From NCBI RefSeq assembly GCF_000266945.1, contig NC_018025.1, positions 1,178,001 through 1,242,000 of the forward strand: a stretch of DNA of 64,000 bases. Direction: 5' to 3'. Below are positions 21,322-25,792 of this stretch, piece by piece. This DNA comes from Desulfomonile tiedjei DSM 6799 (GTDB taxonomy: Bacteria; Desulfobacterota; Desulfomonilia; Desulfomonilales; Desulfomonilaceae). The notes beneath the pieces were generated by a model. It did no database searches. It was not told where the DNA came from and worked only from the letters and a program-made list of their open reading frames with translations. Within the stretch, counting starts at the first letter, position 1, and each line of letters opens with the position of its first letter. The position numbers were made by a program, and so were the translations under genes.

Positions 21322-22323
21322 ATGTCCGAGAAATGGGATAAAGAGAGCATTCTATCGCTGAGCGGAGCTTTTCAAACCTGCAGGATTCTCCTCACTGCAG
21401 CAGAGCTGGATCTGTTTACCATTCTGTCCGACGGTCCCAAGAGCGTCGAAGATATAGCACGAGACAAATCATGGGACGAGAGAGGGCTCCGGATCGTCAT
21501 GGATGCGCTTGCCGCAACCGGGTTTCTGCAAAAGTCTGCTGAAGGAAGCTACAGTGCAGATGAGACGATGCTCAAGCTCATGGCCAAGAACGGATCGCAA
21601 TCGATCCTTCCTCTGGTGCTGCACAGAAATCGTATGTGGGAAAGCTGGTCAAAACTCACTGAAATCGTAAAGACCGGCTCAAATCCCAATCCGTTAGGGA
21701 TGGCTTCCCGGACCTCTGAAGAAGTGCAGGATTTCATTGATGCAATGCATGTCGTAGGCTCCGTCATGGCCAACAGGATCGTCGAATCTTTGGACCTGGC
21801 TCCCTTTAAACGTATGCTCGACGTGGGAGGAGCATCCGGAACATACATAATGGCGTTTCTCAGGAAAGCTCCCCATATGAAAGCTACACTCTTCGACTTT
21901 CCCCGGGTCGTTGAAATGGGCCGAAACAGGTTGACACAACACGGCTTCATAGATCGGGTGGAAATCGTGGCTGGAGATTACACAAAAGATGAACTGCCCA
22001 GCGGACACGATCTGGTGCTCTTGTCTGCCATAATTCACAGCAACAGTCGTGACGTGAACCGCATGTTGTACGGGAAAATTTTCAGAAGCCTCGATCCCGG
22101 CGGAACCGTGCTGATCCGTGATTACGTCCTGGATGAAAGTCGTACGAACCCTCCGGACGGAGCCATATTCGCAGTGAACATGTTGTGCGCCACATCAGCG
22201 GGGGATTCTTACACTCTTAAAGAAATTCGTGAAGATCTGGAGACCTCCGGGTTTGTCAGCGTGAATCTGATTCGCAACGGAGCCAACATGGACCAACTGA
22301 TCAGCGCGGAAAAGCCCCGGTGA
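21322..22323 (+). CDS. SAM-dependent O-methyltransferase-like protein
   Basis: 333 residues in two parts: a winged-helix dimerisation domain (about 10-95; LLTAAELDLFTILSDGPKSVEDIA) and a class I methyltransferase domain with motif I MLDVGGASGTYIMAFL, the acidic motif ATLFDFPRVVEMGR, GDYTKDELP and DLVLLSAIIHS. This is the plant-type O-methyltransferase layout (Methyltransf_2), whose bacterial members act on small molecules. GGGGAGG lies upstream of the ATG. It overlaps the next gene by 4 bp and stands 1.3 kb upstream of hgcA. A role connected with mercury methylation is only suggested by position. Confidence 0.8.
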   Translation: MSEKWDKESILSLSGAFQTCRILLTAAELDLFTILSDGPKSVEDIARDKSWDERGLRIVMDALAATGFLQKSAEGSYSADETMLKLMAKNGSQSILPLVLHRNRMWESWSKLTEIVKTGSNPNPLGMASRTSEEVQDFIDAMHVVGSVMANRIVESLDLAPFKRMLDVGGASGTYIMAFLRKAPHMKATLFDFPRVVEMGRNRLTQHGFIDRVEIVAGDYTKDELPSGHDLVLLSAIIHSNSRDVNRMLYGKIFRSLDPGGTVLIRDYVLDESRTNPPDGAIFAVNMLCATSAGDSYTLKEIREDLETSGFVSVNLIRNGANMDQLISAEKPR

Positions 22324-23414
22324 AACGTATGTCGCGTATCGCCGGGAATGCCTCTTCTGGAATGAAAGGCAAAAGACCAGGGAAGAAATGGCTGATTGTT
22401 CCAAGCATCCTGATTCTGGCAGGAACTGCAAGTCTTGCATGGTCTTTGTATGTTCCCGGGAGCGCTCTTTCTGGTGAAAAACTCTATTCAAAGCTGATCG
22501 TCCCGCTCCTCAAACTGCTTGTGTTGTTATCAGTGGGATTACTGGCCGGTCAGGCACTTGAAAGCCTCGGATGGACCCGTAAACTCGCTCGGCTTGTGCG
22601 TCCGTTGACTCGATGGGGCCATCTCAATGATGAAAGCGGTGCAGCATTCGTCTCCAGCTTCGTATCCGGAGTGGTGGCAAATTCCATGCTCGTGGATTTT
22701 TATCAGGCCAAGAGAATATCCCGGAAAGAACTCGTACTTACGTATCTCGTGAATAACGGCCTGCCGGTTTACCTTGTTCATTTACCCACAACCTTCTTCG
22801 TTGTGGCATCCCTTGCGGGTACTGCAGGGCTCTTGTATCTTGCTCTTACCTTTATTGCCGCATGTCTCAGGAGCATTGGTGTGCTTGCATACACTAGATG
22901 GACTCTGCCGGCCCCTTCTCCCGCCTGGAGCGCTCTGGTGGATCACCTGGATGCAAACAACACCTCGGTCATGAGAAAAATCTGGGAAAAATTTCGGGGC
23001 CGATTCGTTCGATTGGTACTGTACACAATCCCGATTTACATCCTGGTCTTTCTCGCCGGAGAACGGGGAGTGTTCCAATGGTTGAGGAGCGGAGCCGTCG
23101 GTTTCGTTTCCTCCGACGTTTTTCCGATCGAAGCTGCGGGAGTGGTTATCTTTGCGCTTGCAGCCGAGTTCACTTCGGGAATGGCTGCAGCCGGTGCGTT
23201 ACAGAACACGGGATCGCTTGATGTAAAACAAACCGTCCTGGCGCTCGTTCTCGGAACCATTATTGCGACTCCCTTGCGTGCGGTGCGCCATCAGTTACCT
23301 ACCTATGCCGGATTGTTTTCCCTCGGGCTGGGGAGTCAACTCCTGTTCATGAGCCAGGCACTCCGCATCCTGAGCCTCGCCGCGGTCGTACTGCCCTATG
23401 CAATCTGGGGATGA
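22320..23414 (+). CDS. Membrane protein with Gate/nucleoside-recognition-like domain
   Basis: 364 residues beginning at GTG 22320 (GTGA overlap with the methyltransferase). After a basic N-terminus there are about eight membrane helices. The segment GAAFVSSFVSGVVANSML and the later AAEFTSGMAAAGALQ resemble the Gate domain of nucleoside-recognition and SpmA/SpmB-like proteins, which form polytopic transport-like bundles. The transported molecule is unknown. The gene ends 224 bp before hgcA; a hairpin repeat at 23456-23525 and a separate promoter lie between, so co-transcription with hgcAB is not certain. Confidence 0.6.
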   Translation: MKRMSRIAGNASSGMKGKRPGKKWLIVPSILILAGTASLAWSLYVPGSALSGEKLYSKLIVPLLKLLVLLSVGLLAGQALESLGWTRKLARLVRPLTRWGHLNDESGAAFVSSFVSGVVANSMLVDFYQAKRISRKELVLTYLVNNGLPVYLVHLPTTFFVVASLAGTAGLLYLALTFIAACLRSIGVLAYTRWTLPAPSPAWSALVDHLDANNTSVMRKIWEKFRGRFVRLVLYTIPIYILVFLAGERGVFQWLRSGAVGFVSSDVFPIEAAGVVIFALAAEFTSGMAAAGALQNTGSLDVKQTVLALVLGTIIATPLRAVRHQLPTYAGLFSLGLGSQLLFMSQALRILSLAAVVLPYAIWG

Positions 23415-23614: not shown

Positions 23615-23638
23615 TCTATTATTCCCCAGGAGGGACTC

Positions 23639-24790
23639 ATGACCACCTCTTTACCGGCAGAAAATCCATCGGGTCGACCGATTCCTCCACCTGCCCGCAG
23701 TTGTTGACCGCCCCGTCCCAAGACTCGGACGAGTCTTCCCGGGCTGGATCAACCGTTTGTTACCGGTGCTGTGGACACTTTTGCCGGAAAAATCCCGAAA
23801 GTATCTTCCGATCTGACTTTTACCGATAGATTCGGCACGTACAAGGCTCGATGGAAGATCGGTCGCATGAAGTTCGTCGTGGACCCCGGTTTGTATGCGC
23901 TCAACGATCCCGACGCTGCTTCTCCGGTGCTGGTGACCGCGAATTACAAGATGAGTTTCGATTCGTTGAGGTCGGCTCTTCCCGGCAGTTCAGCGTGGCT
24001 GCTCGTGCTGGATACCCAGGGAATAAATGTCTGGTGTGCAGCGGGGAAGGGGACCTTCGGGACGGACGAACTCGTGAATCGCATTGAGACAAGCGGGTTG
24101 ACCAAAGTCGTATCACACAAACAATTGATTCTGCCGCAATTGGGTGCTCCTGGAATAGCAGCTCACAGAGTCAAGAAACTTTCAGGATTCAAAGTTGTTT
24201 ACGGACCTGTGGACTCGTCGGATCTGCCTGAATTCATCGCTTCCGGGTTGGAAGCCACTCCGGAAATGCGCACCAAGACGTTTACTCTGCGGGAAAGGGC
24301 TGCGGTCATTCCCGTTGAACTGGTAAGCGCTTCGACAACAGCTCTGTATATAATTCCCGTGTTGCTGATCCTGAGCGCTTTTGGCGGGCCGTACGGCTAC
24401 TGGACGAACATCACTCATTACGGGCTGGCTGCATCTGCGGGTCTCGTGGCTGCAATCATTGCAGGCACGGTTCTGTTTCCGCTTCTGCTTCCTTGGCTTC
24501 CGGGACGTGCCTTTTCCCTCAAGGGATTCGCTATCGGGATAGCGACCTCGTTGGTTTTCATCGCACTCAAAGCTACAATAACCGGAGAGTGGCCGAATAC
24601 GCTTGAAGCAGGCGCTTGGATCTTGCTCATTACTGTTGTTGTGTCCTATTTGGGCATGAATTTTACCGGTTGTTCCACGTACACGTCGCTTTCTGGGGTC
24701 AAGAAAGAGATGAAATGGGCAGTGCCCTTCCAGATTGCAGGAATCGTAGCAGGGATAGCGCTGTGGGTCTCATCCGGATTTCTGGCCTGA
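23639..24790 (+). CDS. hgcA: HgcA corrinoid mercury methyltransferase, probable selenoprotein (TGA at codon 23)
   Basis: 383 residues when read through TGA 23705-23707. GGAGGG five bases before ATG 23639 marks the start. A Pro-rich leader ends ARSC22-U23-PP, then the conserved start of the corrinoid domain follows (PFVTGAVDTFAGKIPKV). The cap-helix motif NVWCAAGKGTFG carries Cys133, the cobalt ligand unique to HgcA. Five membrane helices occupy about 230-383. The protein methylates Hg(II) with a corrinoid-bound methyl group at the inner membrane. Without read-through the 22-residue leader stops and the main frame has no comparable start; GTG 23771 lacks a ribosome-binding site and would cut conserved residues. 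A SECIS-like hairpin follows the TGA. Confidence 0.85.
23720..23737 (+). promoter_or_regulatory. Candidate bacterial SECIS hairpin of hgcA
   Basis: A perfect 7-bp stem (AAGACTC with GAGTCTT) closes a GGAC tetraloop. The loop begins 19 nt after the TGA codon and has G at its first two positions. To my knowledge of bacterial SECIS rules (apical loop 16-37 nt after UGA, G among the first two loop bases) it fits well. It lies inside the coding region, as bacterial SECIS elements do. Confidence 0.75.
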
Positions 24791-24802
24791 AAGGAGATGC
24801 CG

Positions 24803-25138
24803 ATGCGGAAACTCGTTTATTTGCATGATGTGGTGACTCTTAATCTCGATGAGACCCGCTGTTCCGGGTGCGGCATGTGCCTGCAGGTATGTCCTCATGG
24901 CGTCTTGGCAAAACACAACGGCAGCGTGGAAATCGTCAATCGGGATGCATGCATGGAATGCGGAGCATGTGCGAAGAATTGCCCTACTGCAGCACTTTCC
25001 GTTAAAACAGGAGTCGGATGCGCCACCGCAGTAATCAACTACGCGCTCGGGAGGAACTCTTCTTCCTGCTGCTGCGTCATCGAACCGGATGCCGAGAATT
25101 CAAACCAAGCGCCGACACAATCCTCCGGGTGTTGCTGA
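24803..25138 (+). CDS. hgcB: HgcB ferredoxin-like partner of HgcA
   Basis: 111 residues from ATG 24803, placed six bases after AAGGAG; an ATG six bases earlier would leave no spacing. Two 4Fe-4S motifs are visible: CSGCGMCLQVCPHG and CMECGACAKNCPTA. The characteristic HgcB tail follows, with a single Cys in VGCATAV, then a CCC cluster (SSSCCCVIEP) and a terminal CC. HgcB reduces the HgcA corrinoid to Co(I) and the tail cysteines are thought to handle Hg(II). It lies 12 bp downstream of hgcA in the same transcript. No second TGA is involved here. Confidence 0.95.
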   Translation: MRKLVYLHDVVTLNLDETRCSGCGMCLQVCPHGVLAKHNGSVEIVNRDACMECGACAKNCPTAALSVKTGVGCATAVINYALGRNSSSCCCVIEPDAENSNQAPTQSSGCC

Positions 25139-25198: not shown

Positions 25199-25792
25199 CT
25201 ATTTCTCCAATGACAGCAGCTTCTGCTTGAACACACTTATCGGCTGTGCACCGACCAGCTTTATTGAATCTTCAATGATAAACGTAGGCACTGCAGTGAT
25301 CGTGTTCGCGACAGCGCTCCGGTGAGCTTCTTCCAGTCTGTCTTTATACATGCCGGTTTTCAGCGCATCCAGAAGCGAGCCGGCATCCATTCCGATCTCC
25401 TGCGCCCACGCAGCTAACAGGTCCACGTTTCCGATATCCTGCAGCTCTGTGAAATATGCATGAAAGACTCGTTCGTGAAACTCGTGGAATTTGCCGACGT
25501 CTTTCGCATATTCCGCGGCTTCCAGAGCGGACTGAGAATTACGCACCCTTTCGAGATGGGCAAAATGAATGCCGTAAGGCTCGCCTGCACGATTGAGGCT
25601 TTCGTATCGTTGGGTGAGATCTGCTCCCGGGAAGAGTGTCGTCAGAAGAATGCCTTCTTTCGGTGTTTCGGGTCGTAGTTGATACGCCAGCCATTCGTCT
25701 TCCAGGGAAAACTCTTTCTTCAACTCGTCGACAATACCCTTGCCGATATAACAGTACGGTCAAACGAAATCGGAATATATTCTGATTTTCAT
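25199..25792 (-). CDS. DsbA/FrnE-like thiol oxidoreductase, probable selenoprotein (UPYC active site)
   Basis: 197 residues from ATG 25792, which overlaps the glycosyltransferase stop (ATGA). The start MKIRIYSDFV is followed by TGA at 25760-25762 (codon 11), then PYCYIGKG; family members have C-P-x-C at this site, so the motif becomes Sec11-Pro-Tyr-Cys14. Downstream, the FrnE/HCCA-isomerase layout continues with a helical insertion, then TAVPTFIIEDSIKLVGAQP containing the cis-Pro of the thioredoxin fold. Without read-through the protein would lack its first strand and active site. A short stem (ATATC with GGTAT, loop GGCAAG) follows 15 nt after the TGA. The protein probably exchanges disulfides in the cytoplasm. 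Confidence 0.8.

Follow-up and report, generated by a model that had tools for sequence, protein, structure and literature searches.

The window analysed here, 64,000 nucleotides of the Desulfomonile tiedjei DSM 6799 genome, holds an hgcA gene with an in-frame TGA directly 3′ of a cysteine codon, which raises the question of whether codon 23 ends translation or is decoded and, if decoded, as which amino acid and in what role. A first-pass annotation had proposed that the encoded HgcA is a selenoprotein with a vicinal Cys-Sec pair; this proposal is now strongly supported by the corresponding column in homologues, a conserved downstream hairpin and the selenocysteine genes of the organism, and UGA codon 23 is very probably decoded as selenocysteine (Sec) by the ordinary bacterial SelB/SECIS route. 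To existing predictions we add a comparison of the SECIS-like element with covariation analysis, the distribution of Sec, Cys and absent forms, the case against decoding of UGA as Cys, and a second Sec-type open reading frame (DsbA-like, with a UPYC motif).

An in-frame TGA near the start of hgcA

From its ATG, preceded by the strong ribosome-binding site that the first-pass annotation had pointed out, the hgcA frame continues through the TGA, again as described there, to a stop at 24788-24790 (Table 1). The first start past the TGA under translation table 11 is GTG 23771, so routine annotation would drop 44 residues, among them the leader together with QPFV, a conserved segment; the first-pass annotation had likewise expected standard annotation to mis-start the gene. 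No Shine-Dalgarno-like sequence was seen ahead of GTG 23771.

The identity of the product is clear from profile searches, with 470 bits against NF040863 (curated cut-off 275; residues 52-381) and an additional match to Pfam CdhD. A corrinoid domain with the cap-helix Cys133 is followed by membrane helices, and the cap-helix motif N(V/I)WCAAGK reads NVWCAAGK here, its cysteine being invariant in 35 aligned homologues. Because the NF040863 model starts only at residue 52, leaving 23639-23791 and with it the Cys/Sec leader uncovered, a wrong start cannot be flagged by the family model.

Table 1. Features of the hgcA locus (positions in the window).
Feature	Position	Strand	Basis
SAM-dependent methyltransferase (PF00891), overlaps the Gate-domain gene	21322-22323	+	profile
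Gate-domain (PF07670) membrane protein, upstream of hgcA	22320-23414	+	profile
Ribosome-binding site AGGAGG, 5-nt spacer to ATG 23639	23628-23633	+	sequence
hgcA with TGA as Sec; HgcA of 383 aa, predicted Cys22-Sec23	23639-24790	+	sequence, profile and homologue comparison
Cys22 codon TGT	23702-23704	+	sequence
In-frame TGA, codon 23, very probably read as Sec	23705-23707	+	sequence, homologue columns, hairpin
SECIS-like hairpin, 7-bp stem AAGACTC/GAGTCTT, loop GGAC 23727-23730	23720-23737	+	folding, comparison, covariation
hgcB, dicluster ferredoxin with GVGC, SCCCVIE and C-terminal CC	24797-25138	+	profile, homologues
DsbA-family ORF (PF01323), in-frame TGA in CxxC motif, SDFVUPYCYIGK	25199-25792	-	profile, sequence

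Cysteine or selenocysteine in the HgcA leader

To place codon 23 in context, we took 80 HgcA loci from a collection of bacterial and archaeal species and added others from 60 related genomes. Once duplicates were removed, 94 sequences remained, of which 93 are on the tree, and their leaders were read with TGA as U; this sample is biased to relatives of the Sec-type query, and its counts are not population frequencies. Among the 93 sequences on the tree, the codon-23 column held TGA in about 40 and Cys in 39, with Sec aligned to the Cys column, mostly 15-17 residues ahead of QPFV, itself conserved in homologues between the TGA and GTG 23771. The first-pass annotation had pointed to Cys-rich leaders in several homologues, with TGA replacing Cys, and the alignment of N-termini bears this out. 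Scripted classification of all 94 leaders gave CU (29), other Sec (14), CC (22), CxC (10), single Cys (6) and none (13), where the last class includes two sequences with a Cys pair further upstream (L108 and L112) and one that is masked (L084). Two members (L077 and L097), in which the TGA lies ahead of the likely start, were removed by hand from the Sec class, leaving 41, among which the assignment of L090 is doubtful (TGA ahead of the likely start, no hairpin). The order of the pair is not fixed among relatives (CU, GUC, TUC and CGAGU all occur); the same-family loci included Desulfomonilaceae, and in a genome of the same genus (L113) the pair reads CU and is likewise followed by a hairpin.

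On a tree built from the core domain without the leader (quickly made, many of its forks being unresolved), the Sec label changes nine times, at least three of these changes being forced by well-supported branches. As judged from the aligned leaders, the pair is retained as Cys-Cys or Cys-Sec across large distances. Some HgcA lineages have neither Cys nor Sec near this column, so the pair is probably auxiliary to catalysis. The Desulfobulbaceae-type HgcA of three loci (L075, L078 and L079) have leaders without Cys, and the HgcB tails at these loci are short and have no mid-tail CCC. Across the sample, the shortest HgcB tails belonged mostly to one clade without leader Cys, and the events were too few to link leader type with HgcB tail cysteines.

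A conserved hairpin downstream of the TGA

The first-pass annotation had described a 7-bp hairpin with a GGAC loop 19 nt past the TGA; the hairpin stands, and the distance is that of the loop, the stem starting at 12 nt. The window has 2,397 TGA triplets, counting both strands; just one of them has, at that distance, a 4-nt loop closed by 7 bp or more and bearing a G in loop positions 1-2, and any 7-bp SECIS-like hairpin follows 3.3% of them. The folding energy of the single-sequence hairpin is unremarkable (z about -1.3), and the weight of the argument is on the comparative hairpin signal, folding energy alone being weak.

By criteria applied identically to both groups (a stem at the expected distance and a G within the first two positions of the loop, with thresholds that we set ourselves), a hairpin at bacterial SECIS distance was present at 38 of the 41 TGA loci versus 7 of the 33 Cys loci. 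The loop mostly lies 19 nt past the TGA, and 16 or 22 nt past it in other TGA loci. Compensatory, two-sided changes occur in six of the seven stem pairs (26 ungapped sequences), and the covariation score of 0.260 was reached in 0 of 500 shuffles (shuffled mean 0.180; 0.224 at the best slide), a result that counts as support rather than as a probability because the shuffles leave relatedness in. The conserved core comprises the inner five pairs, the outer two surviving in no more than about half of them, and relative to the consensus inner stem GGCTC/GAGCC the window has GACTC/GAGTC, a compensated G-C to A-U change. An AQ(V/L)S protein motif past the Sec position is found mainly in Sec forms, a pattern that would be expected if selection acts on the RNA hairpin rather than on the protein. 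The first-pass annotation had proposed a search for a bacterial SECIS at 23700-23745, and the conservation and covariation at SECIS distance fit such an element; no SECIS family in Rfam matched the hairpin.

Decoding of codon 23

A search of the genome (6.53 Mb, 2 contigs) recovered all four of the genes that the first-pass annotation had named as a check, selA (599 bits), selB (404.5 bits), selC (a tRNA-Sec with anticodon UCA, TCA in DNA) and selD (G000:C1:3873142-3874065, L018). The selD gene has an in-frame TGA, and selenophosphate synthetase, its product, is probably itself a selenoprotein. Each of the 11 related genomes sampled with Sec-HgcA contains selA and selB, but the same is true of nearly all those whose HgcA is Cys-type or leaderless (selA in 17 and selB in 18 of the 18 related genomes, whatever the HgcA type), so co-occurrence of Sec-HgcA with the machinery does not discriminate. 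The genome also carries a second selB, which directly follows a tRNA-Sec-like tRNA-Cys with anticodon GCA (L002 / L010, G000:C1:3562734-3564838), matching the described selC*/selB* arrangement (PMC7609411).

Could the TGA instead be a true stop that ends a 22-residue leader peptide, with HgcA initiated further downstream, for instance at GTG 23771? The standard code, the existence of an open reading frame from that GTG and the NF040863 profile, which begins only at residue 52, would all fit, but about 40 relatives keep the frame across the TGA and 39 others have Cys at the column, the QPFV segment that would be lost is conserved, the GTG has no Shine-Dalgarno-like sequence and the hairpin goes with TGA loci; we consider a stop highly improbable and reject it on the alignments. 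Decoding of UGA as Cys by the second system is less probable still: this genome has the selB* beside a tRNA-Sec-like tRNA-Cys, and a selC* tRNA-Cys with an opal anticodon has been described in Desulfobacterales (PMC7609411), but the tRNA here has GCA, which reads UGC and UGU rather than UGA, so UGA should not be read by this system, and a separate tRNA-Sec with UCA is present. We reject this route on the GCA anticodon. Insertion of Sec, by comparison, is supported by the Cys/Sec column, the conserved hairpin, the presence of selA, selB, selC and selD, and an independent prediction in the literature. On the testable points at which the first-pass annotation had laid its proposal open to refutation, the column holds Cys or Sec in homologues and selB and selC are in the genome. 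Full-length HgcA would then carry Cys22-Sec23 on a flexible N-terminal tail ahead of its corrinoid-binding domain.

Neighbouring genes

The adjoining hgcB scored 120.5 bits against NF040864 (cut-off 99), and its homologues suggest that it starts at the second ATG, 24803. The DsbA-like ORF is convergent with hgcAB. About 20 nt past its TGA stands a 7-bp hairpin whose loop reads GGGTA, and the ORF is probably a second selenoprotein gene adjoining hgcAB; no such gene was seen next to hgcA in the other fetched loci. Homologues of the Gate-domain protein occurred, among fetched loci, only in the hgcA loci of L113 (75% identical) and L108 (60%), and the methyltransferase had no homologue beside hgcA among the other fetched loci. 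The reported methyl donor of HgcAB is SAM (PMC11588087). A plasmid search gave no match.

Relation to known and predicted systems

The first-pass annotation knew of no Sec-containing HgcA, a statement that is outdated: a 2026 review (PMC13188914, citing Haft and Gwadz 2023) tabulates HgcA (NF040863, motif CU, WP_250697417.1) and HgcB (NF040864, motif GVGU) as predicted selenoproteins, and some hgcA and hgcB homologues have been noted as possible selenoproteins (PMC11588087). In the main text of the PLoS Genet 2008 paper that the review cites for HgcA (its reference 61), we found no HgcA or CO-dehydrogenase entry. We found no difference of kind between the window HgcA and the predicted Sec-HgcA (same family, CU motif, inferred UGA recoding), and on sequence evidence it is a further member of this already predicted family, for which the comparative case is now stronger. 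HgcB, the partner in the same complex, is predicted to contain Sec in some species, whereas the window HgcB has GVGC, and GVGU occurred in none of the HgcB tails that we examined. At one locus (L043, about 1810-1812), hgcB has a TGA in place of the last Cys of the mid-tail CCC motif seen in relatives (CCU-VVEP), with a second TGA as the stop; the first TGA is possibly a Sec site distinct from the listed GVGU.

HgcA of Pseudodesulfovibrio mercurii ND132 (PMC7305189, PMC11588087) shares with the window protein the corrinoid domain, the cap-helix Cys, the membrane domain and hgcB. Its cap-helix residue is Cys93 (PMC7305189) as against Cys133 here, and by this numbering it probably has no Cys-Sec leader. 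The C-terminal Cys pair of mercuric reductase (MerA) is comparable in function alone, in that a mobile tail carries vicinal soft ligands, MerA being an unrelated protein that uses the other terminus, carries out reduction rather than methylation and has no Sec.

Possible roles of the Cys-Sec pair

In an AlphaFold2 model of HgcA (35 sequences, mean pLDDT 82.9), residues 1-10 and 12-29 have pLDDT below 50 and the first strand begins at residue 41, which places the pair on a predicted disordered, flexible tail ahead of the corrinoid domain. There, Cys22-Sec23 would be a mobile, high-affinity soft-metal ligand near the corrinoid that would take up, hold or pass Hg(II) or CH3Hg+, complementing the Cys pair on the C-terminal tail of HgcB, much as the mobile C-terminal Cys pair does its work in mercuric reductase. 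HgcB of ND132 requires one or both of the two C-terminal Cys on its disordered tail, a pair that the authors compared with that of MerA (PMC7305189); we count this requirement and the disorder of the HgcA leader in favour of a ligand role, which we put forward tentatively. The first-pass annotation had offered capture or transfer of Hg(II), or protection of the cell, as roles for the pair, and these are plausible. The pair is probably not essential for catalysis, given that some lineages lack it and that ND132 methylates with what is probably a much shorter leader.

Sec might also be inserted and the pair serve thiol/selenol redox chemistry or the protective trapping of mercury rather than mercury delivery. 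Vicinal Cys-Sec pairs have redox roles elsewhere, for example in thioredoxin reductase, and here a Sec-type DsbA-like ORF adjoins hgcAB and the pair is missing in some lineages; yet the DsbA-like gene lies beside hgcA in no other fetched locus, and the pair sits within the methylation protein itself, where it persists in Cys-Cys or Cys-Sec form between distant relatives. This role is possible, if on the improbable side. The broadest form of the ligand reading, in which the N-terminal Cys-Sec is a dedicated HgcA shuttle for Hg(II) or CH3Hg+ that is Sec, Cys or lost by lineage, such that selenium supply tunes methylmercury formation in many anaerobes, we consider unlikely.

Implications

HgcAB is the source of microbial methylmercury, and selenium strongly alters mercury chemistry. 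Should full-length translation depend on Sec in many HgcA proteins, databases would hold truncated HgcA sequences, the protein could be shortened under selenium limitation, and biochemistry on forms with short leaders, such as that of ND132, may overlook a metal-binding element.
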